Below, piece by piece: positions 33,382-45,567 of a stretch of 64,000 nt of DNA (position 1 is its first letter; each line of letters begins with the position of its first letter). The notes beneath the pieces are model-generated. The model was not told where the DNA came from, searched no databases, and was given only the letters and a program-made list of their open reading frames with translations. Position numbers and translations under genes: made by a program. Source of the stretch: Arthrobacter pullicola (GTDB lineage Bacteria; Actinomycetota; Actinomycetes; Actinomycetales; Micrococcaceae); contig NZ_JACSQC010000010.1 in the NCBI RefSeq assembly GCF_014836875.1, positions 1 through 64,000 on the forward strand. The letters run 5' to 3'.

Positions 33382-36300
33382 TCAGCGCAGCAGAATATCC
33401 ACAGCCCGCGAGCCGCCAGACGACCCCACCGGAACCCGCTCCAGCGTGCCGGACCGGTTGGCGGCGTCGTCGCGCAGGATCTCCGTGACCGACCCCAGGA
33501 ACCGGGACAGATCCACCTTGTCCTCCGGGGCGGCGAGCAGCAGCTGGAAGCCGAACTCGTGCAGCGCGTTGATGGACGCCTCGGCGAAGGACAGGGACGA
33601 CTTCACGAACGCCTCATCCATCATCACGGTGCCGTAGGTGCTGAAGCCCTGAGACACAATGCCCAGCTGGTACGCCAGCGCCGACGCCATGATGAACGCG
33701 GTGAAACGCTGGCCCTCGCCGCCGGACATCAGCGACGCCTGCAGGTTGGTGAACGACTGCCCGTTCGCGAGCTTGTTGGTGCAGGTGATGGTCACGTGCG
33801 CGCGGACGTCAAGGACCTCGGCCCGCCAGCGGCGCTCCTGCGGATCCTTGAGCTTCTCCACCAGGCCCTCGAGCGCGGCGTAGCGGGCGTCCATGTCCGC
33901 CTTGTCTTGCCGCACACCCATCATCGGCAGCGCGTTCTTCAGTTCGGTGCGGAACTTGTGCGCGTCGTCCGGGACGGTGGTCTTGACCTCGATCTCCAGG
34001 TGGCTGTCCACGTGGTACGGCACGCGGCGCAGCACCGAGTTCAGCGGCAGCAGGCGCGAGGAGATGCTGCGGCGTTCCTCGTCGAGCAGCTGCAGCAGGT
34101 CGCTGAACCGCTCGTAGGTGCGGTTGTTGAAGTATTCGCGGAACTCCGACTCGTGCTGCGGCAGGCCCTCGGTGACAATGTCCTCGTACCGGTGCACGTA
34201 CTCCTCGGCCGAGTCCACGGACGTGCCGAAGTCCGAGCCCCACTTCTCGCTGTACGTCTCGAAGCTGCGTTCCAGCCGGGTGCGGGTTTCCAGCAGGGTC
34301 TTATCCAACCGGGCGGCGTCGGTGAGCAGGTTCCGCTCCACCTGCCCGGCGGCGTCGTTCAGGTGCACGACGTCGGTGATCTCACCGAAGGGGGCGAACA
34401 GCTCATCAAGCTGCGCGCGCAGGTCCTCCGCCAGGGCATCCGGGCCGCGGCCGGCCAGGGTGTCGCGGCGTTCAGTGGCGGCGGTCAGCTCGGCCTCGAG
34501 CCGGGCCAGGTCGCCCTTGAGCACACCGATCTTCTCGGTCGCGGCGGTCAGGTCCAGCTCCGCGGTGTCCAGTTCGAAGCGGATCTGCTCCAGGTCCGCG
34601 TTGGCGTCGCGGGCGGATTCCAGGCGCTCGACGGCGTCGGCGACGGCGGCGCGCTGCTCCCCGGCGGTGATCTCCTCGAACTCGCGGGTGTCGGCAGCGA
34701 CCTTGCGGACGGCGGCGAGCCGGCGGATCAGGTCGTCCTGCTCGGCGGCGTGCTTGCGGGAGACGACGTCGGCCTCTTCAAAGCTAGCGCGCAGGGCCAG
34801 CAGCTCCGCGGCCAGGGCAGCGATCTTGTCCTTGTTATCAAAGCCCAGGACGTTGTCCGAGGCCTTGGTATGCCTGTCGTCCTTCTCCGTGGTGGAGGAG
34901 TTGCGCTTCACGGCACCGCCGAGGCTGACGCCGCGGGATACCTTGGCCAGCTCGTCCGGGTTTTCGACGCACTCGAAGTCGTAGTGCGCGGTGATCTTGC
35001 GGGCCACCCAGTCGCCCATGGCGGAGTCGTAGGTGCTGAGCTTGGTGATCAGGTCACGGGGTCCCGGCTCGGACGGGCCGTCCACGGGAATGCTGACGTC
35101 GATGCAGCGCAGGAAGCCGCGGAGGTTGGTTTCGCTGAGGTAGCGGGTGACGGCGGCCATGTGTTCGCCGGGAACCAGCAGGGCGGTGGAGAGCGGGCGG
35201 AGCACACGTTCGGCGGCGGCACGCCACTGCGAGTGGTCGGCCGGAACGTCGATCAGTTCGCCGGCAAAGGGCATCTCGGCCTCGTCGATGCCGGTGGCTT
35301 CACAGATCCGGGCACGCTGTTCCAGGCTTTCCGGGCGGATGTTGCTGCGCCGGCGGCGGAAGGACGCGATCTCGGTTTCCAGCTTCGCGATGGAACCCTT
35401 CAGGGCCCACGCCTCGCCGTGCGCGTCGGAGCTGCGCTCGCGGGCGGCGTCGACGTCGGCGTTCAGGGTCTTGATCAGCTCATTGGCGCGGCTGCGGGCG
35501 GTGACCAGCCCGGCGGGGGAGAGGTCCGTGTCGATGCCGGCGGCGCGCAGGTCGGCGCGGAACGCGTTCTCCACGGTTTCACGGGAAACAAGCTGCGCCT
35601 GCGCGGCTGCGACCTCGCGTTCCAGGGTGGCGATCGCGCCGCCGCCCTCCTGCGTGTAGCGGGCAGTGAGCTCGGCGACCTGCTTCTTCAGCTTGGTGCG
35701 CTGTTTCTCGGCGGACTTCAGCGCTTCGCGGCCGGTGGTTGCAGCACCGGTGAGGCGGTCGACGTCGCGCTCGTGGCTGGCCAGCGCCAGGCGGCGGCGG
35801 TAGGCGGGCAGCCCGTCGGCGGTGAGGGCGCGGACGCGGTCCAGTTCGGCCTTGGTAGTGAGGAACAGGTGGTGCTGGTCAGGGACGTTGGCGAGTTGGT
35901 CGCGCTGCTGCCGGGCGCGTTCGAGCTGGCGGCGGATGCTGCGCAGGTGGCTGAAGTCCTCCACGGCCTCGTCCGCGGCGGTGAGGGTTTTGGGGGTGTC
36001 CAGGACGTTGGTGCGGAAGAAGTCGTTGACGGTTCCGCCCAGGCCCTTGCCGGTCTGCAGGATGCGCAGCAGGCCGAAGGCCTTCTCGTCCTCCACACCC
36101 AGGGCGGTGCGGTACCGCTCGGCGAAGAGTTTGTGCGAATCGAAGATCTGCGCGCCCGGGAGCAGGGATTCAAGGGCACCCTTGGTGAACCGGCCGCGCA
36201 TGCCGGTTTCGAGGGAGGGAATGTCCAGTGGACGGTTGTGCACGGCGTAGAACCGGCCGACGTGGTGTTCGGTGCCGGTCGCGGGCAGGTCCATGAGTAC

Positions 36301-36705
36301 GGAGAGGCTGGTGATCTGGCCCAGGCCGTTGTCGAAGGTGAGGCAGACGGCGGACCAGGTGGCGCCGGGGCGCTGGTAGGCGGTGCCGTCGCCGGCTTCC
36401 ATGCCCTGGGTGCCGAGCCGGCCGCGCATGTAGGAGAACGCGGTGCGCTTTTCCTCGGCTGCGGTGCCGCCGTTGTTCTGCGCGGCCTCGTTCATCTTGG
36501 GCCGGGCGTCCATGACCTGCAGCATCGCGTCGAAGATGGTGGACTTGCCGACGCCGGAGTCACCGGTGAGCAGCGTGCCGGCGCGGTCCACGTGGATGGT
36601 GTGCGCGCCGTCGAACGTTCCCCAGTTCACGATCTGGATCCGGGAGAGCCGGTTCTGGCCGGGGTTGATCAGGTCCCCCATGGGAAGGGTGGTTTCGATG
36701 CTCAT
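33382..36705 (-). CDS. Wadjet/Mks SMC-like ATPase JetC (MksB)
   Basis: 1107 aa SMC/MukB-like ATPase. Walker A GDSGVGKST at 48-56; long coiled-coil arms (about 300-480 and 620-900) around a hinge-like middle (about 490-600); signature SLMSGGEGQR at 991-1000; Walker B with TVMMDEAF near 1030. Translational overlap (ATGA) with jetB. In Wadjet/MksBEFG systems this subunit extrudes DNA loops and helps restrict plasmids. No JetD-type nuclease gene follows, so plasmid cleavage cannot be assumed. Intact and probably functional. Confidence 0.92.
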   Translation of the reverse strand: MSIETTLPMGDLINPGQNRLSRIQIVNWGTFDGAHTIHVDRAGTLLTGDSGVGKSTIFDAMLQVMDARPKMNEAAQNNGGTAAEEKRTAFSYMRGRLGTQGMEAGDGTAYQRPGATWSAVCLTFDNGLGQITSLSVLMDLPATGTEHHVGRFYAVHNRPLDIPSLETGMRGRFTKGALESLLPGAQIFDSHKLFAERYRTALGVEDEKAFGLLRILQTGKGLGGTVNDFFRTNVLDTPKTLTAADEAVEDFSHLRSIRRQLERARQQRDQLANVPDQHHLFLTTKAELDRVRALTADGLPAYRRRLALASHERDVDRLTGAATTGREALKSAEKQRTKLKKQVAELTARYTQEGGGAIATLEREVAAAQAQLVSRETVENAFRADLRAAGIDTDLSPAGLVTARSRANELIKTLNADVDAARERSSDAHGEAWALKGSIAKLETEIASFRRRRSNIRPESLEQRARICEATGIDEAEMPFAGELIDVPADHSQWRAAAERVLRPLSTALLVPGEHMAAVTRYLSETNLRGFLRCIDVSIPVDGPSEPGPRDLITKLSTYDSAMGDWVARKITAHYDFECVENPDELAKVSRGVSLGGAVKRNSSTTEKDDRHTKASDNVLGFDNKDKIAALAAELLALRASFEEADVVSRKHAAEQDDLIRRLAAVRKVAADTREFEEITAGEQRAAVADAVERLESARDANADLEQIRFELDTAELDLTAATEKIGVLKGDLARLEAELTAATERRDTLAGRGPDALAEDLRAQLDELFAPFGEITDVVHLNDAAGQVERNLLTDAARLDKTLLETRTRLERSFETYSEKWGSDFGTSVDSAEEYVHRYEDIVTEGLPQHESEFREYFNNRTYERFSDLLQLLDEERRSISSRLLPLNSVLRRVPYHVDSHLEIEVKTTVPDDAHKFRTELKNALPMMGVRQDKADMDARYAALEGLVEKLKDPQERRWRAEVLDVRAHVTITCTNKLANGQSFTNLQASLMSGGEGQRFTAFIMASALAYQLGIVSQGFSTYGTVMMDEAFVKSSLSFAEASINALHEFGFQLLLAAPEDKVDLSRFLGSVTEILRDDAANRSGTLERVPVGSSGGSRAVDILLR

Positions 36706-37469
36706 GCCGGCTCCTCGCCGTCGTTCAGTTCTGCCTCAACCGGGGCGTCCGCGGTTTCAGCGTTTTCAACCGTGTCCGGTTCGGCCGGGGCCTCGGTCAG
36801 CGAGTTCATGTAGGTGATGATGTCGCCGATGTGTTCGTACGGCAGGGCCAGCGGCAGTGCGTTGGAGATGACCCAGACGTCGTCCAGCTCGGTGGGCAGC
36901 AGTAGGCGGCGTTCGGTGACGAGCTTGCGGATGGCGGCGTCGGCCAGGTCTTCCACGCCCTTGGCGTCGTGCGCCTGCGGGTCCACGTACTGCTCGAGGA
37001 CGTCGATGATGTCCTGCCGGGCGATGGTGGCTTCGTTGCCGGTGCCCGAGTGGCGGTCCAGGACCAGGCGCATGCGCAGCAGCAGCAGGGTTTCCTCGCG
37101 CGTCATTTCGCGCTGGCGCTGCAGGGCAGTGGTGTGCGGTTCGGCCATTTCCACCGGGCGCAGCAGGGCAACTTTGTGGTCCTCGTCCACCACCAGCTCC
37201 AGGAACAGCTCGCTCAGCCGGACGCGCAGCTGCTCCTGGTTATCCACCACGGTGTTGTACACGTTGTCCGAGGAGTTGGCGTCCAGGTACGGGCCGCGCA
37301 GCAGCCGGATGAGGGCCTGGCGCAGCTTCAGCGGCAGGGTGCCGGTGTCGCCGGGGAACAGTTCCGGGCCGTCGATCAGGACGTCGCGGGCGGGCTGGGG
37401 GTATTCCTCTAGTTCGTCCTGCTCTTCCAGCTCATTGTCGAAGTCTTCTGCGGTGGGGGTTTCAGTCAT
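36702..37469 (-). CDS. Wadjet/Mks kleisin-associated subunit JetB (DUF4194, MksE)
   Basis: 255 aa, DUF4194-type KITE protein. Acidic disordered N- and C-termini flank a winged-helix core (LPLKLRQALIRLLRGPYLDA, EETLLLLRMRLVLDRH). Start overlaps jetA stop and stop overlaps jetC start (both ATGA), so the three are produced as one complex. Confidence 0.9.
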   Translation of the reverse strand: MTETPTAEDFDNELEEQDELEEYPQPARDVLIDGPELFPGDTGTLPLKLRQALIRLLRGPYLDANSSDNVYNTVVDNQEQLRVRLSELFLELVVDEDHKVALLRPVEMAEPHTTALQRQREMTREETLLLLRMRLVLDRHSGTGNEATIARQDIIDVLEQYVDPQAHDAKGVEDLADAAIRKLVTERRLLLPTELDDVWVISNALPLALPYEHIGDIITYMNSLTEAPAEPDTVENAETADAPVEAELNDGEEPA

Positions 37470-38935
37470 GACTGGCTTTCGGCGACGGTGAGGACGGGCA
37501 GCACTGCGGTGCGGGAACTGCCGTCGATCTGGAGGAACGGGATGGACTCGCTGGCTGCCGTCCTTGTTTCCGTGCCCCCTGCGGGGGCGGCGGGGGCGGC
37601 GGAGGCGAGGAGCGCGCGGATGCTGTTGAGGTGGCGGTGTTCGGCGGGCAGTTCGGCGAAGATCTCTGCGACGGTGGCGCGGCCGCGGCGGCTGCCGGCC
37701 CGGGTGATTGCGTCGCGCAGCACCCGGCGGTCGGCCTTGGGGGTGCGGGCGGCGCGGTGGATGTCCGCTTCGGTGAACGACGGCGGTGCGGGCAGCTTCC
37801 GCGGTGCGGCGTGCTCGGCGGGGTCGTAGGTGCGGACCATGCTGAGCGATTCGAACGCGGACGCGTAGAGCTTGGGTGCGGGGACGACGGCGGCGCGGCG
37901 GCGTCCGCGCGGTGCCTTGTGGATGGCGGTTTCAGCCGCGCGGATGAGTTTGCGCAGCTGGACGGATTCCCGGTATTCGTCGCTTTGGACGTAGGTGTGC
38001 AGGGATTCGGAGAGCCGGCCGTAGATCCGCTGGATTTCGGCGGCCTGTTCGCGCATGTCGCTTATCATCCGGTACAGGGCCTGCCGGTCGCCGGGGGACA
38101 TCGCGTCGGCGAAGTCGCGTTCCAGGACCTGCGCGATGGCGTGCCGGAAGCGTCCCTGCTGGTCGGCGTCGTTCAGGAAGGCGGTGAAGCCTTCGTAGGT
38201 GCGGCCTTCGCTGGTGCTGCGCAGGCGTTTGTCCGCTTCGAGGATTTCGCCCATGGTCAGGCCCTTGGAGGCCTGCGATTCGACCATTTCCTGGCGCAGG
38301 GTGTGCAGCATCTTCTCGAGGCCGTCGCGCATGCGCTTGAAGTCGGCGGGCAGCGCGGCAGCGAGGTCCAGGATGTCGCGGGCCGCTTCGACGGCGGTGT
38401 CGTCGTCCAGCGGCGGGGGAGCGTCGCCGGCGCGGAGGGACCGGATGAGGTCCTCGCGGCGGGCGATCTCTTCTTCGAGGACGGCGATGCGTGCTTCGGG
38501 GTCCGGGTTGGATTCGTGCGCCAGGGTTTCCACGCTGGAGAGCAGGGTATTCAGGCGGGAGGAGTTCAGGCTGGTGGTGTCGCCGGTGAAGCCGTCCAGG
38601 TAGGAGAGGAACCGGACGGCGGGTTCGGTGAGTTCGTAGACGAAGCGTCCGTCGGCGCGGGGGCGGGCCAGGAAGCGGCGGGCCACCCATTCATCGGCGT
38701 AGTTCTTGCCGGTCCAGTCCTCGCGCAGGCTCTGCCCGTTGAGCCTAAGCTGCTGCAGGAAGGAGTCGGTGAGGCTGTGGAATTCGTCCAGGGGGATACG
38801 CGGCCGGGTGCGCGTGAAGGCCTCGCGGAACAGGGCCAGGACCCAGGGGTTCGCGTTGGTGAGTTTCCAGCCGGGCGAGGCCTGTAGCCGCTGCAGCTCC
38901 GCCCAGCGGGCTACGGCGTTTTCTGTGAAGGACAT
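37466..38935 (-). CDS. Wadjet/Mks kleisin subunit JetA (DUF3375, MksF)
   Basis: 489 aa, DUF3375 family. Characteristic N-terminus WAELQRLQASPGWKLTNANPWVLALFREAF, helical middle (REDLIRSL, MRDGLEKMLHTLRQEM), a long helix around 270-310 and a C-terminal winged-helix-like part. It bridges the SMC heads as kleisin. First gene of the jetABC operon; the promoter should lie in 38936-39060. Confidence 0.92.
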   Translation of the reverse strand: MSFTENAVARWAELQRLQASPGWKLTNANPWVLALFREAFTRTRPRIPLDEFHSLTDSFLQQLRLNGQSLREDWTGKNYADEWVARRFLARPRADGRFVYELTEPAVRFLSYLDGFTGDTTSLNSSRLNTLLSSVETLAHESNPDPEARIAVLEEEIARREDLIRSLRAGDAPPPLDDDTAVEAARDILDLAAALPADFKRMRDGLEKMLHTLRQEMVESQASKGLTMGEILEADKRLRSTSEGRTYEGFTAFLNDADQQGRFRHAIAQVLERDFADAMSPGDRQALYRMISDMREQAAEIQRIYGRLSESLHTYVQSDEYRESVQLRKLIRAAETAIHKAPRGRRRAAVVPAPKLYASAFESLSMVRTYDPAEHAAPRKLPAPPSFTEADIHRAARTPKADRRVLRDAITRAGSRRGRATVAEIFAELPAEHRHLNSIRALLASAAPAAPAGGTETRTAASESIPFLQIDGSSRTAVLPVLTVAESQS

Positions 38936-39343
38936 GCTGCGCTTTCCGCCCGGAACGAAGGGGTAAAACGGGCCTGTCTGATTTTAGCTGAGCGGGGGAG
39001 GGTGTGAGGCGTGTGATGGGCGTGGGAGGGCACTGGGCTGAACCTTGAACGACTTACTTCTCACCACCGAGATCCTAGTTCGACCAGCTCCGCCGCCTTT
39101 GACTGCCGTTGGGCTTCTTCCATGGAACCGTTCAGGAGCACGAGTTTTCGTCGGCGGGTCTGGTGCCGGCGCAACCGTGCGAAGGGCTCGGATATGCCGC
39201 AAGCTCCAGCAGTAACAAGATCGGGGCTGCCTTGCTGGCGGATAAAGAGCGCGTCCGTCCGGCATCGAGAACGTAGGTGCTGTTTAGCAGGAACTACGAC
39301 GATTATCGCGCCTCAACTCTCGACTATGTATATGGCAAAACCT
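38936..39343. other. intergenic region, left flank of NACHT island
   Basis: 408 nt between jetA and the stop of the NACHT gene. The GC content drops visibly from about 39040 rightwards. The minus strand has an 83-codon open frame (39312-39061) without a start codon, which could be a gene remnant. No RNA gene, integrase or clear attachment repeat is seen. Confidence 0.5.
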
Positions 39344-42238
39344 TTAGGATCGAGAAGGTAGAGTCACGACCTCACGTAGCCGATCATCGACGAATTCTTG
39401 ACCGATGCCCTGGGAGACCTGAGACAAAAACCACCCGTAGGCAATTTCTTCTCCCTCAGGTAGCTTTAGGCATGCCTCGAGGACAACCTCGAATAACCTT
39501 TCAGACGCCAGGATGGGGGCGAGTGGATTGACATAATTTCGTGTCCAGAATTTTACGAATGTATATCCGAGACTCCCATTGTCCAGTTTTATAAAACGAG
39601 CCGATGTTTCATCTAATGCTCTCGATAGAACATTAACTTCTGACTCGCTCAGCCCGTCTAGCCGGAGATGAGGAGAAACAATATTTGTAAACCTATTCGT
39701 GGCTTCCTTAGAGAAGTTCAGGCGAGGACTCCTCCTTGGGCTGACTTCGTTATGGGAGGAGCTGTAGGAGGGTGGTGCATCGTCTGCGGATCTGGAAGGC
39801 GTCAGGGTAACCCTCGTTCTTGCGTACGCAGATATGCCACCCTGATGATGGCGAGACCAAAACGTCAGAATTTTCGATGCATAGTGGTGGCGTGGTCCAC
39901 CTGCGAGCAGGGCATTCTCGAACGTCCCGCGAATCTTTTGATAGACAACTTTATCCTTCAGGGACGCCTCATGCAAGATTGGAATAAGCTTATATGGGAA
40001 GCTTGGATTGTCTACGTACTCAGACACGCGCAGAATAAGTTTTCGGCGGAACCCAGGAGTTTCGGAAGCGAAGTTGTCTTCCAAAAGATCCGCCGCGAGA
40101 TCACTTCCAGACTTAACCCAACTTTGCTGTATCGATGCTTCATCCAAATCCAATACAAGATCTATGAGCTTGGACCGAAGATGGGAATAGTTATCAAAAA
40201 CTTGGCCGGCGGCAAATAGCCAAGTGTTTCGCCAATGCGCACTTTTAGCCAGGACCTCAAGGCGAGTTAGAACCTCTTGGGGGTCTCCGGATACAAGAAA
40301 ACGTGAAGCCATGTACTCTTGGAAACTGCGAAGTTCAAACCCCCATTCACCAGCCGAGGGCTCCACTAAAAGTATAAATCTATCGGTAGCAAGCTTTATA
40401 AGCTCTTTTGAGGTTCTCTCGGCGTCAGGGAGGTCGTAGGTCATGGTTTCGTGTAAGTGGTTCTTTGCCAAGGTTTGCAGCTCTGATCTTTTCAAGTGCG
40501 CATCGGCTTGTCCTGACTTCTCAGCATCAGTATGAAGTAATATGCCAGCAGCGTCATGTAGGGCGTCAATGCTTGAGCGGTGTTGGTTGACTTGTTTTCC
40601 AACATTTCCTAATTTATTGCTTTCCCGCATGAAGATTGTGCTGTAGAAATCTGCGAAAAGAGCATGGCGTGTCCTCGGCAGCCTAATTCGATCCTCTAGT
40701 AGTGAGGCCATGATGCTGACCTGAAGGGGGGTGCCCATCAACTTCGCGGTCATTTCGTCACGAGAGGCTTCCTTCAGCCGCGTATGGATATCATGCGCGA
40801 AAGTGGAATCAGAAGGATGGCGTGAGGAAACAAGCTGGAGCGCGTACCCCAGCGCTTGGTCAGTATTCAGTTCGACTAGTTCAAATTCGCGGGGCTCAAG
40901 CGTGCGCAAATCATTTTCATAGCCTTGTCGCCGCGTCGTAGCCAGTATGGATATATCGGAATTCTGTTCACTAGCGTCTAGAATGAACTCACTTATTTTC
41001 GAGAATAGCGTCTCTCTTGTCACTGTGTCGGCCACCTCGTCGAGGCCGTCCAGTACAAGCATCCACGGGAACTTTTTCAACCAAGCGTAAACGTGGTTTT
41101 TTTGCACATTTGTTGCCGGGGATCGCCTATTTATTTCATCTGTTATGTACCCAAGAAGCGAGTAGTCCTCGTTGCCCATTATGCGTTCACTATATTCGCT
41201 TAATCTTATGTATACGGGCCAGCGACGTAGTTTAGGTAGGGATATGCCGATTTTGGCAAGATGGTCTATGGTTTGCCGGAGTACCGTTTTGTGCTCATAG
41301 GGCAAGGATTCGGCCTGCTCGGCCAGAATTGCAGCTCTGTAGGCCTGACATAGCAATAGACCTACGGTCGACTTGCCTTGTCCTGGACCGCCTACTAGTA
41401 CGGTACTAAATCGAGAATTTGAAATATGCCGTGGCGAGTCGCCGAAATCGATCATGTTCCGAGCAAAGAATACTGGATCGCTGTCATCCGTCGCCCCGGT
41501 CCCTGCATCAAGTTCTCGCGACGGGAGGTCGATTCCTATGTCGTACAACAGTTCCTTGTTGGGTCCGTCTCCGGCCTTCGTGAGCCGGACTGTGCTCTGC
41601 GCAAGAAGCTCTTTAACAACAAAGCTCGTTAGAGTTTTTATAGGCTCAGCACGCTCGCTTGTATGAATCTCAAGCATAGCGCTTAGGAGATCCCCGGTGA
41701 GGACGAGACCTAAATAGGTTTGCCGTACGCCTGGATGATTGTCTAAAAGCCTTGATATGTGGGCAGCATGCCAAATCGCCCATCCGCGGAGGCCTAGCTT
41801 TTTCGCATGCGACTTCATTGCCGCTGTTACCCGATCAATTCCGCCTTTTTCCTGAACGGCCGAGAGTCTGACGTTGGTAATGAATAATAAATTGCGCGGT
41901 TTGGGCTTCCTGTCTTTATCTTCGCTCAACCAGGCATTGACTTCTTTTTGCATTGTTGTCAACAGCCAATTGACATCCTCTGCTCCGCCTTCGAGTCGGC
42001 TCTTATGTTTTGCTTGGACTACCGTGTATCCGGTCCAGTGGGACCCCTGAGCGTCATCCCAGTCTGTATCGGCGACCTCTATAATAGGGAGCGGCAGCTC
42101 TCCGTGATATGTCCACTCCCTACCACCATCTTTGCCTGCCCCGAACGTCTGTCCCCCAGGCCCGAAGTTGGCATTACACAATGCGACAGCCATGTCCTCG
42201 AACTCAGTGCTTCCCATTCGGACCAGATCATATTCCAT
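39344..42238 (-). CDS. restriction-endonuclease-like + NACHT NTPase (candidate anti-phage STAND protein)
   Basis: 964 aa. Residues 1-170 form a PD-(D/E)XK-like nuclease domain: EFEDM, the acidic GKDGGREW (D37, E41) and VVQAKHK (Q75, K77). Residues about 270-480 form a NACHT/STAND NTPase with Walker A GGPGQGKS (283-290), Walker B LVLDGLDEV (394-402) and a sensor-like ATTRR. The remaining 480 residues are helical (FRSFQEYMASRFL-type motif near residue 650) and probably sense a phage signal. The N-terminus MEYDLVRMGSTEFED fits related bacterial NACHT proteins, supporting this ATG. Codon and base use is clearly AT-richer than its neighbours, indicating acquisition. It lies next to jetABC in a region with gene scars. 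Function as abortive-infection nuclease is inference. Confidence 0.85.
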   Translation of the reverse strand: MEYDLVRMGSTEFEDMAVALCNANFGPGGQTFGAGKDGGREWTYHGELPLPIIEVADTDWDDAQGSHWTGYTVVQAKHKSRLEGGAEDVNWLLTTMQKEVNAWLSEDKDRKPKPRNLLFITNVRLSAVQEKGGIDRVTAAMKSHAKKLGLRGWAIWHAAHISRLLDNHPGVRQTYLGLVLTGDLLSAMLEIHTSERAEPIKTLTSFVVKELLAQSTVRLTKAGDGPNKELLYDIGIDLPSRELDAGTGATDDSDPVFFARNMIDFGDSPRHISNSRFSTVLVGGPGQGKSTVGLLLCQAYRAAILAEQAESLPYEHKTVLRQTIDHLAKIGISLPKLRRWPVYIRLSEYSERIMGNEDYSLLGYITDEINRRSPATNVQKNHVYAWLKKFPWMLVLDGLDEVADTVTRETLFSKISEFILDASEQNSDISILATTRRQGYENDLRTLEPREFELVELNTDQALGYALQLVSSRHPSDSTFAHDIHTRLKEASRDEMTAKLMGTPLQVSIMASLLEDRIRLPRTRHALFADFYSTIFMRESNKLGNVGKQVNQHRSSIDALHDAAGILLHTDAEKSGQADAHLKRSELQTLAKNHLHETMTYDLPDAERTSKELIKLATDRFILLVEPSAGEWGFELRSFQEYMASRFLVSGDPQEVLTRLEVLAKSAHWRNTWLFAAGQVFDNYSHLRSKLIDLVLDLDEASIQQSWVKSGSDLAADLLEDNFASETPGFRRKLILRVSEYVDNPSFPYKLIPILHEASLKDKVVYQKIRGTFENALLAGGPRHHYASKILTFWSRHHQGGISAYARTRVTLTPSRSADDAPPSYSSSHNEVSPRRSPRLNFSKEATNRFTNIVSPHLRLDGLSESEVNVLSRALDETSARFIKLDNGSLGYTFVKFWTRNYVNPLAPILASERLFEVVLEACLKLPEGEEIAYGWFLSQVSQGIGQEFVDDRLREVVTLPSRS

Positions 42239-42348
42239 GCACGCAGCATACCCTTACCAAGGCCGATTTGTGCTGCGGTTCTCAGCAGCCTCGTTTGGTG
42301 TTAGCAGCAATTCGACCTCATTTGAACGGTTCGTGGCCGCTGATTGCA

Positions 42349-42645
42349 GGTAGCGCCCTGGACCCGGAAATGATTGACGAAGTACTGCAGACCATGAAGT
42401 CCCTGGCCGCGTCGGGGCGGACCATGGTGGTGGTCACCCATGAGATAGAGTTCGCCCGCGAGGTCGCGGACCGCTGCGTGTTCATGGCCGATGGCCGCGT
42501 CATCGAAGACCGGCCCGCAGAGGCATTCTTCCGCAACCCGCAGACTGACCGGCTGCGCTCTTTCCTGGCCCGCTCAAAGCCAAGTAATGCCGGGATACTA
42601 AGAATGAGGGCGGCTGCTGCCAGCGACATTGCGCCAGCAGAATGA
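42349..42645 (+). pseudogene. truncated glnQ-type amino-acid ABC ATPase (C-terminal fragment)
   Basis: The frame reads GSALDPEMIDEVLQTMKSLA, then VVVTHEIEFAREVADRCVFM and FFRNPQTDRLRSFLAR, i.e. D-loop, H-loop and C-terminus of a polar-amino-acid ABC ATPase. Walker A, signature and Walker B are missing; homology begins right after the Walker B position, at about 42352. After FLAR (about 42585) the sequence changes to unrelated DNA, so both ends are joined to foreign sequence. No start codon or ribosome-binding site. A remnant, not expressed as a functional ATPase. Confidence 0.85.
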
Positions 42646-43454: not shown

Positions 43455-43528
43455 GAGACGGAGCCTAACCGACGCTTCCAAGACCCATCAGAGCGTCAAC
43501 GCGTGTCCAGCAGATGTCCTGGGGCTCC

Positions 43529-44296
43529 CTAGAACAGCGGCCAGGGCACGGCAGGCATCCCGCCGCGCGGGCCAGGGAACACCGCCGTCGAACGCAGCCG
43601 GGCACAGCGTGTGGAAAGCGTTTCGATCTCCTCAGCGGTCAGCAGCTCCGCCAGCTGCTGGCCCAGCTCGCCGTCCAGCCCCGCGAGAACCCGGTCAATC
43701 CCGGCGAGTTCTTCCTCGCTAAGCTTCTCGCCGATCCAGCCCCACAGCACGGTCCGCAATTTGTGCTCGCTGTGAAACGTGAGCCCGTGGTCCACGCCGA
43801 ACCGGTGCCCGCCGGACATGGGGAGGATGTGGTCGCCCTTGCGGTCGGCGTTGTTGACGACGACGTCGAACACCGCCATCCGCCGCAGTGCCGCCGAGTC
43901 CTCATGAATGAGGGCGACGATCCGCCCGGCCGGATCCTCACCCTCCAAGACGAGCTTGAACCCCGACTCCGGCACCTCCTCCACAGCCACCAGATCCACC
44001 GCGGCCTGCTCCGGGTCGGTCTCCTGCCAGAGCTGCACCATGCCCTCGCCGAGCGGACCGTCCCGCAGCCAGGTGCGCGGCACGATGTTCCAGCCCAACG
44101 CCTCGGACACCAGATAGGCAGCAACTTCGCGGTGCGCCAGGCAGCCATCGGGGAAGTCCCACAAGGGTTTCTCCCCGGCTAGGGGTTTGTAGACGACCGC
44201 GGCGTCACCGATGCTGCCCAGGAATGTGGCGTTGGACGCCGTCGTAATCCGCCCCGTGAGCGTGAGTTCGTCGGTGAGCAGGTCCGGTGCCGGCAT
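43529..44296 (-). CDS. SCO1664-family kinase-fold protein
   Basis: 255 aa. The motifs VVYKPLAGEKPLWDFPDG, REVAAYLVSEALGW, VVNNADRKGDHIL and FGVDHGLTFHSE give it a PI3/4-kinase-like fold characteristic of the actinobacterial SCO1664 family. Overlaps the DUF3090 gene (TAATG). The trio with DUF3090 and an MSMEG_4193-type phosphatase is conserved in actinobacteria; biochemical role not established. Confidence 0.87.
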   Translation of the reverse strand: MPAPDLLTDELTLTGRITTASNATFLGSIGDAAVVYKPLAGEKPLWDFPDGCLAHREVAAYLVSEALGWNIVPRTWLRDGPLGEGMVQLWQETDPEQAAVDLVAVEEVPESGFKLVLEGEDPAGRIVALIHEDSAALRRMAVFDVVVNNADRKGDHILPMSGGHRFGVDHGLTFHSEHKLRTVLWGWIGEKLSEEELAGIDRVLAGLDGELGQQLAELLTAEEIETLSTRCARLRSTAVFPGPRGGMPAVPWPLF

Positions 44297-44850
44297 TAGT
44301 TTTCGGGAAGGGTGCAGGTGTGTCCGTCGGCGTCGATCGGCTGACCGCAGATCACGCAGATCGGACGGCCGGCGCCCACGATTTCCCGGGTGCGTTTCGC
44401 GAAGGCCCGCGCGGTGCCCACCGGCATCCGGACCCGCAGGACTTCGGCAGCATCGGCGTCGTCATCATCGTCGAGGAGTCCGTCGTCGTCCTCATCAACT
44501 TCCTCGAGGGGGTAGGCCTCGATGACGACCTGCGCCGTCGTCGGATCCCAGCCCAGGCTCATCACGCCGGCGCGGAACTGTTCCTCCACAGTGTCCAGAT
44601 CGTCGTTGTCGACCAGCTCCAGGGGAGTGTTCGCGGGCACGTGGAAGGGGTTGCCATCGATGGTCATCAGCTGGTCGAGGATCTCATCGATCTTCTCGGC
44701 GAGCTGGTCCGCCTGCAGCTTCTCCATGGCGATGCTGATGAGCTGCTTGCCTGCCCGCGCCTGCAGGTAGAACGTGCGCTGACCGGGGACGCCGACGGTG
44801 CCGACTACTACGCGGTCCGGCCAGTCGAAATCGTGAACGGTTGTAGGCAT
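44296..44850 (-). CDS. DUF3090 family protein
   Basis: 184 aa. Begins VHDFDWPDRVVVGTVGVPGQRTFYLQAR, which is typical of DUF3090. It ends in a zinc-knuckle-like pattern CVICGQPIDADGHTC. An acidic run (DEDDDGLLDDDDDADAAE) precedes it. Middle gene of the conserved three-gene operon. Confidence 0.9.
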   Translation of the reverse strand: MPTTVHDFDWPDRVVVGTVGVPGQRTFYLQARAGKQLISIAMEKLQADQLAEKIDEILDQLMTIDGNPFHVPANTPLELVDNDDLDTVEEQFRAGVMSLGWDPTTAQVVIEAYPLEEVDEDDDGLLDDDDDADAAEVLRVRMPVGTARAFAKRTREIVGAGRPICVICGQPIDADGHTCTLPEN

Positions 44851-44859
44851 AGGACTACT

Positions 44860-45567
44860 TTAGGCTCCTTGGACGCGCGGTGCTGCGTGGCCTGCGCCAC
44901 CACCGACCGGCGCATCCTGCGCTCCGTGGACGGCAGCCAGCCAGGAGAGGTCTCCGGCGTCGGTATTGGTGGCGTGCACGGTGGGCCGCCCCGGGCCGTA
45001 ACGCACGATCGACACGGACGCCGGCCCGACATCGATCCGCTGGAACAGATCCAGGTGCATGCCGAGCGCGTCGGCCAGGACTGACTTGATGATGTCCCCG
45101 TGGCTCACCGCCGCCCAGACGGCGCCCGGACCGTGCTCGGCTTCGAACGCGGCGTCATGCCGCCGGATCGCCGCCACCGCCCGGGCCTGCATCGCAGCCA
45201 TGGACTCACCACCGGGGAAAACGACGGCGGAGGGCTGGGTCTGCACGACCTTCCACAGATCCTCTTTCGCCAGGTCGGCGAGGGTTTGACCCTGCCACTG
45301 GCCGTAATCACATTCGGTGAGGTCGCCGTCGACCGGTGCGTGCGGAGTGCCCGGCTGGTGGTCGAGGATGAACTGCGCGGTCTGCCGGCAGCGCTCGAGC
45401 GGACTCGACACCACTCCGACCAGGGGCACGACGGCGAGCCGTTGCCCGGTTGCGTCCGCCTGGTTCCGGCCGACGTCGTCGAGGCTGACCCCGGGGGTCC
45501 GTCCGGCCAGCAGGCCCGAGGCATTCGCTGTGGTGCGGCCGTGCCGCACGAGGATTACTGTTGCCAT
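44860..45567 (-). CDS. histidine phosphatase (MSMEG_4193 family)
   Basis: 235 aa. Phosphoglycerate-mutase-like fold with RHG motif LVRHGRTTAN, SSPLERCRQTA, acidic GDLTECDYGQWQG and second catalytic His in AAVSHGDIIKSV. First gene of the trio with DUF3090 and SCO1664-type genes. Substrate unknown. Upstream 45568-45862 (295 nt) holds no clear gene. Confidence 0.92.
   Translation of the reverse strand: MATVILVRHGRTTANASGLLAGRTPGVSLDDVGRNQADATGQRLAVVPLVGVVSSPLERCRQTAQFILDHQPGTPHAPVDGDLTECDYGQWQGQTLADLAKEDLWKVVQTQPSAVVFPGGESMAAMQARAVAAIRRHDAAFEAEHGPGAVWAAVSHGDIIKSVLADALGMHLDLFQRIDVGPASVSIVRYGPGRPTVHATNTDAGDLSWLAAVHGAQDAPVGGGAGHAAPRVQGA

Follow-up and report, generated by a model that had tools for sequence, protein, structure and literature searches.

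A 64,000-nucleotide stretch of DNA from Arthrobacter pullicola (NCBI RefSeq assembly GCF_014836875.1, contig NZ_JACSQC010000010.1, positions 1 to 64,000; hereafter the window) contains a gene for a 964-residue protein in which a predicted N-terminal PD-(D/E)XK nuclease domain is joined to a central NACHT module and a divergent C-terminal tail. We consider it likely that this is a STAND protein acting on its own against phages (and possibly plasmids too), triggered through its C-terminus and working through its nuclease, because its nuclease motif and fold, its NACHT module, its divergent tail, its location in a chromosomal slot, the settings of its relatives and the layout that it has in common with bNACHT25 and bNACHT32 all point in this direction. 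The gene and the parts of its product are:

39344..42238, minus strand: nuclease-NACHT (STAND/NLR-like) gene, a 964-amino-acid (aa) open reading frame (ORF), from motifs and a fold model
41699..42238, minus strand: predicted PD-(D/E)XK (Mrr/Avs4-like) nuclease domain, residues 1-180, with D37 and Q75-x-K77, from motif conservation, a model and VIA-align
40814..41428, minus strand: NACHT nucleotide-binding domain, residues 271-475, with Walker A at 283-291, Walker B at 394-402 and R436, from conservation and fold
39959..40813, minus strand: predicted helical part resembling helical domain 1 (HD1), winged-helix domain (WHD) and helical domain 2 (HD2), residues 476-760, from alignments to NLRC4, NOD2 and NLRP3
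39347..39958, minus strand: fast-evolving C-terminal segment, candidate sensor, residues 761-964, with the lowest identity and no Pfam match

The frame is intact, running for 964 codons from an ATG start with zero internal stops, and reproduces the boundaries of the large gene that a first-pass annotation of this DNA had placed here. Its composition is foreign-looking, as had also been noted: GC content is 0.50 in the gene and 0.65 in the window, and GC content at third codon positions (GC3) is 0.51 versus 0.66-0.91 in the other window ORFs of at least 200 aa, a selection of ORFs that itself favours high GC3. Models and domain-wise conservation agree on the proposed tripartite arrangement of effector, NTPase and sensor, in which the tail would do the sensing.

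Conservation was assessed in an alignment of 82 proteins, made up of the window protein, 10 from among the first matches and 71 of the best 80 of 120 relatives that were kept from a profile scan of genome contigs; a scan of genome contigs with the single protein had returned 22 stretches and no relative. The alignment leaves out L022, L028, L054, L056, L073, L083, L084 and L094, as partial, frameshifted or shorter than 800 aa, L034, which was taken for a duplicate of L003, and the plasmid locus L010. The nuclease-domain alignment is without L096, L098, L099 and L104, the last of which contains stop codons. Among the members with a residue at the position in the 82-protein alignment, D37 is kept in 66/66, K77 in 68/68 and Q75 in 67/68; unlike the Walker stretches, this motif was absent from the patterns with which relatives were scanned.

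When modelled alone, the nuclease domain reached a predicted local distance difference test score (pLDDT) of 91.0 and a predicted template modelling score (pTM) of 0.87. Structural re-alignment with VIA-align, which re-scored Foldseek's own candidates (998 chains, so that absence from its lists excludes no family), placed the N-terminus of Avs4 first (8dgf_B residues 3-191; Z 11.8, 2.8 Å, 153 residues), followed by AF1548, titled as of unknown function (Z 8.9), and the restriction enzymes AspBHI (8.2), MspJI (7.9) and FokI (7.7). These matches and the invariant D and Q-x-K motif support a nuclease fold with an intact, presumably functional active site in residues 1-180, and the similarity to the nuclease end of Avs4 is in line with the fold that the first-pass annotation had anticipated in residues 1-170. 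The Pfam Mrr_cat model recognises this domain in one of the 46 members scanned (E 2.8e-04). In some members no N-terminus is aligned; these could be truncated or have a different effector.

The intact NACHT NTPase was found where it had been proposed. Walker A reads GGPGQGKST (residues 283-291), Walker B lies at about 394-402, and the key Walker residues are identical in 82/82 aligned members, an invariance that is partly by construction because 71 of the 82 came from the scan with both Walker stretches as patterns. The Pfam NACHT model scores 16.2 bits with the window protein, under its gathering cut-off of 26.7, and matches 38/46 members of alignment set A2 at E ≤0.01 (best 3.1e-08). Because the fold matches the NACHT part of NLRs, we read the sub-threshold score as a weakness of the model. 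A full-length AlphaFold2 model built from 46 sequences (mean pLDDT 86.7, pTM 0.74) had NLRP3, NOD2 and NLRC4 as its best Foldseek matches in the PDB (E 4e-10 to 3e-09), and VIA-align gave Z 20.8 for NOD2 (393 residues, 10.9 Å) and Z 17.4 for NLRC4 (489 residues, 5.3 Å, model range 196-813). The NLRC4, NOD2 and NLRP3 chains align from about residue 196 to 724-813 of the model, and residues ~196-760 are predicted to take up a fold resembling the animal NLR NACHT module. By sequence, the single protein had no match in the PDB; the whole-family profile found P-loop proteins for the most part, and also NLRC4 (E 7.5e-04). A fold search of BFVD returned seven matches at E ≤0.001, the first of them a phage-genome protein with an NLR-like name.

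The extent of this module reduces the candidate sensor. The first-pass annotation had assigned about 480 C-terminal residues to it, which is ruled out by the fold alignments that carry the NACHT module to about residue 760; because residues 476-760 supply, in the model, the helices and winged helix of a NACHT module of the NLR type, only about 200 residues (about 761-964) remain. Identity to the nearest relative is 71% in the nuclease, 57% in the nucleotide-binding domain, 64% in HD1-WHD, 46% in HD2 and 31% in residues 761-964. Across 26 non-overlapping homologue pairs, taken from 125 with core identity of at least 42%, mean identity is 60, 58, 63 and 56% in the four upstream blocks and 33% in the tail (identical residues relative to the segment length in the first protein of the pair, with gaps lowering the value), and the tail is the least conserved block in 25 of the 26, the exception being L009-L024; L062, at 1,121 aa, is not as long as the protein with which it is paired. 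The C-terminus of the window protein matches no Pfam family, and the families found beyond NTPase models in the scanned relatives (Mrr_cat, DUF4240, DUF7639 and SnoaL_4) occur in one member each. Low conservation of the tail is the pattern that would be expected of a sensor.

The kind of protein to which these parts add up is already known. In the sections of PMC12169576 consulted, bNACHT25 and bNACHT32 (clade 6) are described as single proteins with an N-terminal PD-(D/E)XK DNase, a central NACHT domain and a C-terminal sensing part, which depend on their PD-(D/E)XK active site to protect against phage and in which infection sets off DNA degradation. The window protein has the three-part layout described for bNACHT25, whose sequence is WP_001702659.1, and for bNACHT32, and its N-terminal PD-(D/E)XK domain is assigned by residues and predicted fold. 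Unlike bNACHT25/32, it has no NCH1 found at its C-terminus: NCH1 was not among the Pfam matches of the window protein, of 46 members, trimmed to the core where long, or of a set of 31 long ones, sets that overlap and were searched with a library whose content of NCH1 is unconfirmed. The nucleases of Avs1-Avs4 are reported, in the part of PMC12931631 consulted, to cut the genomes of both host and phage once phage packaging proteins, or another protein of the phage, have been sensed. With Avs4 the window protein shares STAND logic and the closest nuclease fold in the PDB re-alignment. It differs in its length (964 aa versus 1,534 residues in the Avs4 chain) and short C-terminus, and its full model matches NLRs better than Avs proteins, Avs3 standing at rank 36 with Foldseek. 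Like the animal NLRs NLRC4, NOD2 and NLRP3, it has an NBD-HD1-WHD-HD2 arrangement (NBD, nucleotide-binding domain) in its model; unlike them, it has a nuclease in place of the CARD/PYD effector and no leucine-rich-repeat Pfam match. At E up to 1, PADLOC, whose database presumably holds Avs models, gave only weak matches to PDC-S73 and PtuA and none to an Avs model. The window protein is thus unlabelled by PADLOC, and Pfam sees in it only a sub-threshold NACHT domain.

By analogy with these systems, the protein is most likely an abortive-infection STAND nuclease; we infer oligomerisation, DNA cleavage and an abortive outcome from bNACHT25/32 and the Avs proteins. In a resting cell it would be a closed, nucleotide-bound monomer. 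On infection, the ~200-residue C-terminal segment would detect a phage product, either by binding it directly, in the way of the Avs proteins, or by way of a host factor, the role reported for DnaJ with bNACHT25. The NACHT module would then exchange its nucleotide and oligomerise, bringing together the N-terminal PD-(D/E)XK domains, which once assembled would cut DNA, so that phage production would end with the death or arrest of the cell.

The location of the gene was compared among 29 genomes of the genus. It lies between two conserved anchors, in a slot laid out as follows:

37466..38935, minus strand: jetA (mksF-like), core left anchor, PADLOC JetA1 E 1.1e-229, in 29/29 genomes
39002..42351, no strand assigned: cargo segment; on the left, the match to six close relatives ends at 38999-39002, and on the right, similarity to four resumes at 42352
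42352..42580, plus strand: scar, ~76 codons from the 3' end of an ATPase gene of ABC-transporter type (identified by its motifs), 88-95% identical to relatives
43529..44296, minus strand: core right anchor gene, 255 aa, weakly PI3/PI4-kinase-like by Pfam, in 29/29 genomes
44296..44850, minus strand: DUF3090 gene behind the right anchor, from Pfam

jetA is 96-98% identical in seven relatives, and its end was compared in six. It starts 408 bp from the end of the nuclease-NACHT gene, and the cargo boundary is ~65 bp upstream of jetA. On the other side, the scar matches the 3'-terminal part of an ATPase gene, whose 337-343-aa frame is open in all four relatives matched (G023, G022, G005 and G025), in keeping with the gene scars noted in the first-pass annotation. 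Because identity ends at 38999-39002 and similarity restarts at 42352 inside the relatives' ATPase frame, we take the window gene to be a sharply bounded cargo of 3.35 kb that occupies the place where relatives hold something else. The right anchor scores 24.5 bits with the Pfam PI3/PI4-kinase model, under the cut-off of 27.1. It is on one contig with jetA, 4.6-29.8 kb apart, in 23/29 genomes; in the other six it is intact and lies on another contig or more than 300 kb from jetA.

What occupies this slot in congeners was examined in 66 hand-picked ORFs from 26 genomes (GC ≤0.60, at least ~220 aa, within ~9 kb of jetA), which are part of those qualifying; some slot intervals ended at 20 kb, and G001 has no qualifying ORF beside jetA. 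Twenty of these proteins, mostly the largest, were scanned singly, and 14 of them match PADLOC models at 1e-15 or better; among the 10 longest kept window ORFs outside jetA-C and the nuclease-NACHT gene, a control from one genome only, none do (0/10). The matches, which are to components with the completeness of each system unchecked, include Lamassu LmuB (G005, G014), AbiU (G022), DitA (G008), PD-Lambda-2_B (G020), an AriA-like protein (G011), Hachiman HamB (G026), PD-Lambda-1 (G013) and, in G004, Gabija GajA plus a second GajA/AriA-like protein. A joint scan of all 66 ORFs gave 404 PADLOC families at 1e-5. G021 carries, directly beside its jetA (locus L034), a second nuclease-NACHT gene of the long class whose product is 34% identical. 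Judged by its gene content, the jetA-side slot is a predicted defence-gene hotspot, and it is from this slot that the defence setting claimed for the gene is retained. No account of the Arthrobacter jetA-side slot was found in the open-licence literature searched, including the accessible part of PMC10482375.

Relatives elsewhere are found in comparable settings. Three of 5,426 Escherichia coli genomes have a member with 73.6% DNA identity over 62% of a Lelliottia gene of the family; the E. coli protein has the accession WP_096949132.1. In E. coli strain H2 the annotation shows a P2-like prophage in which the member is flanked by a partial portal gene on one side and the replication endonuclease gene on the other; a second strain has the same endonuclease side, the other side being the end of the record. 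Because these flanks match the description in the part of PMC9122126 consulted, where the P2 gpA-gpQ slot is a defence hotspot, the E. coli member appears to sit at that hotspot, and it resembles the STAND-nuclease cargo of the P2/P4 hotspots: the P4 hotspot is described there as holding STAND proteins with an Mrr_cat or BpuSI_N nuclease. The Pseudarthrobacter homologue, the closest among the matches listed, lies beside an Mrr_cat-nSTAND3 gene in divergent orientation, and a gene for a reverse transcriptase is ~7 kb away; the homologue in G006, ~460 kb from its own jetA, has an AbiEii neighbour.

The family is broad and, in the genus, patchy. By record titles, relatives among the matches listed come from Actinomycetota, Pseudomonadota, Bacillota and Cyanobacteria and, as more distant relatives, from Bacteroidota and others (Chloroflexi, Acidobacteria, Spirochaetia); the nearest full-length relative listed, from Pseudarthrobacter enclensis, is 52-53% identical. 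A tree of the NTPase core unites 24 proteins of 882-995 aa, including the window protein, in one clade (support 0.937). Of the 58 proteins outside it, 43 have ~1,195-1,370 aa; L053, the only short nuclease-bearing protein there, is cut by a contig end. The nuclease-NACHT gene is present in 3/29 genus genomes, its own included, and in 3/59 genomes of a wider kinship sample, all three in the genus; this rules out a housekeeping gene and agrees with the accessory spread expected from the first-pass annotation. A profile search of 119 genomes around Lelliottia gave rows at E 0.001 in 89, with a full-length protein only in the starting genome; partial matches were to the nuclease part in G169 and to the C-terminal profile part in G109 and G117, the rest being mostly to short P-loop stretches. 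A near search of E. coli with a Klebsiella member as query gave no match.

Relatives also occur on 35 plasmid records, some near replication or recombination genes, and on 11 IMG/VR contigs; a second scan of viral contigs gave two loci, both from contigs found before. The plasmid records, and a neighbouring condensin of the Wadjet type, could suggest that the protein serves mainly in interference with plasmids or other mobile elements, cutting incoming or competing replicons to the benefit of carrier plasmids or islands. We regard this as unlikely, with one member in a prophage anti-phage hotspot and other cargo of the chromosomal slot matching PADLOC defence models; moreover, plasmids are known to carry anti-phage genes. 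The repeated placement in defence slots, the intact catalytic and Walker residues and the diversified C-terminus also speak against the ideas that the gene is a selfish element or one of the addiction type, that it is a defence gene now broken, or that it regulates cell death and has no anti-invader role. That NACHT-nucleases can be toxic when activated, as bNACHT32 with its activator inhibits growth (PMC12169576, in the part consulted), and that the gene is a lone one (no antitoxin search was made) would fit such an account, which we nevertheless hold to be very improbable.

Several observations weigh against the anti-phage assignment. No experiment on any member of the nuclease-NACHT family was found in the literature searched, and no member in 50,697 phage records. 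Foldseek alone found nothing significant for the nuclease domain in the PDB (best E 0.06), and the nuclease profile had one chance-level match and none significant among PDB sequences. The low conservation of the tail could partly reflect relaxed constraint. In the slot, the cargo match in G027 is a PD-T4-6/mad6-like kinase and may be generic; three of the 14 matches are to PDC models (PDC-S06 in G025, PDC-M68B in G002 and G012), which we take to be candidate systems; and 6/20 scanned cargo proteins (G024, G007, G018, G019, G003 and G016) are without a strong PADLOC match.

The gene's neighbour on the left is a condensin operon, of which jetA is part together with two further genes:

36702..37469, minus strand: jetB (mksE-like), PADLOC JetB1
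33382..36705, minus strand: jetC (mksB-like condensin ATPase), PADLOC JetC1

The first-pass annotation had identified jetABC correctly and had seen in it a condensin-type defence operon; its reading as an acquired defence neighbour is not supported, since jetA is core to the genus (29/29) and JetD_C (PF09983) was found in 0/29 genomes in a search that covered the C-terminal but not the N-terminal domain of JetD and was positive in its Corynebacterium glutamicum control. A complete Wadjet plasmid-defence operon is ruled out by this JetD_C result. MksG/JetD is the nuclease of the system (PMC10123090), and chromosome organisation is the role assumed for a Pseudomonas aeruginosa MksBEF (PMC7083940), both according to the parts of these sources consulted; for these reasons and the missing JetD_C, a core condensin is the more probable reading of the neighbour, ahead of a defence operon. 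Across the genus, a condensin without JetD seems conserved. As a caution, jetABC adjoining a gene is by itself no evidence for a defence island, since here it is core and without JetD.

The constant presence of jetA without JetD_C, and a cargo boundary so close upstream of jetA, might alternatively indicate that the nuclease-NACHT protein works with the condensin, the JetD-less JetABC being its partner or guarded target and the slot supplying exchangeable effectors. Slot cargo lies in both orientations, several systems of the cargo type act on their own elsewhere, and among the family loci searched, many with short flanks, jetA is nearby only at the G021 locus, the G006 member being far from its own; we think such a partnership extremely improbable. 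Equally a long shot is the wider proposal that JetABC and the exchangeable effectors of a genus-wide condensin-anchored slot form one functional unit, with the hypervariable tail conferring specificity in a new subfamily of bacterial NLRs; that, within such a unit, the cargo would guard the condensin, or the condensin deliver DNA to the cargo nuclease, is just as doubtful.

Beyond the window protein itself, the results indicate that nuclease-armed NLR relatives make up a broad family. The tail of this protein, compact and quick to evolve, should be a manageable object for learning what such receptors sense. The condensin-side slot offers a practical address for further defence genes in the genus: six of the 20 scanned cargo proteins are without a strong PADLOC match. 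The AT-rich cargo without a PADLOC match at 1e-15, at L132:2850-3992, L138:7109-8509, L143:4994-6991, L151:2778-3905, L154:1761-3131 and L157:2799-4538, makes up candidates for unknown defence genes.

Further observations concern the family and the slot. Among related NACHT proteins, L058, L063, L065 and L070 measure 1,499-1,613 aa, counted from a start close to the match; they show no aligned nuclease and carry a C-terminal AAA_21/ABC-type ATPase, giving two NTPase modules per chain. In G169, a 426-aa open frame (L169, G169:C1:1851770-1852243) aligns with the family profile in the nuclease part alone (E 3.7e-11) and is possibly a nuclease domain without NACHT. Partial copies of the right-anchor region (window 43520-44860) lie among the cargo in 16/28 other genomes (L135, L136, L138, L140, L141, L143-L146, L148, L150, L153, L157-L159 and L161), those in G022 and G020 being 32-43-bp matches only. 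A 572-aa gene with a GC content of 0.69-0.70 recurs by the jetA-side slot in congeners (L143-L148, L150, L153 and L139), and its copy at L148:5810-7528 encodes a thiamine-pyrophosphate enzyme.

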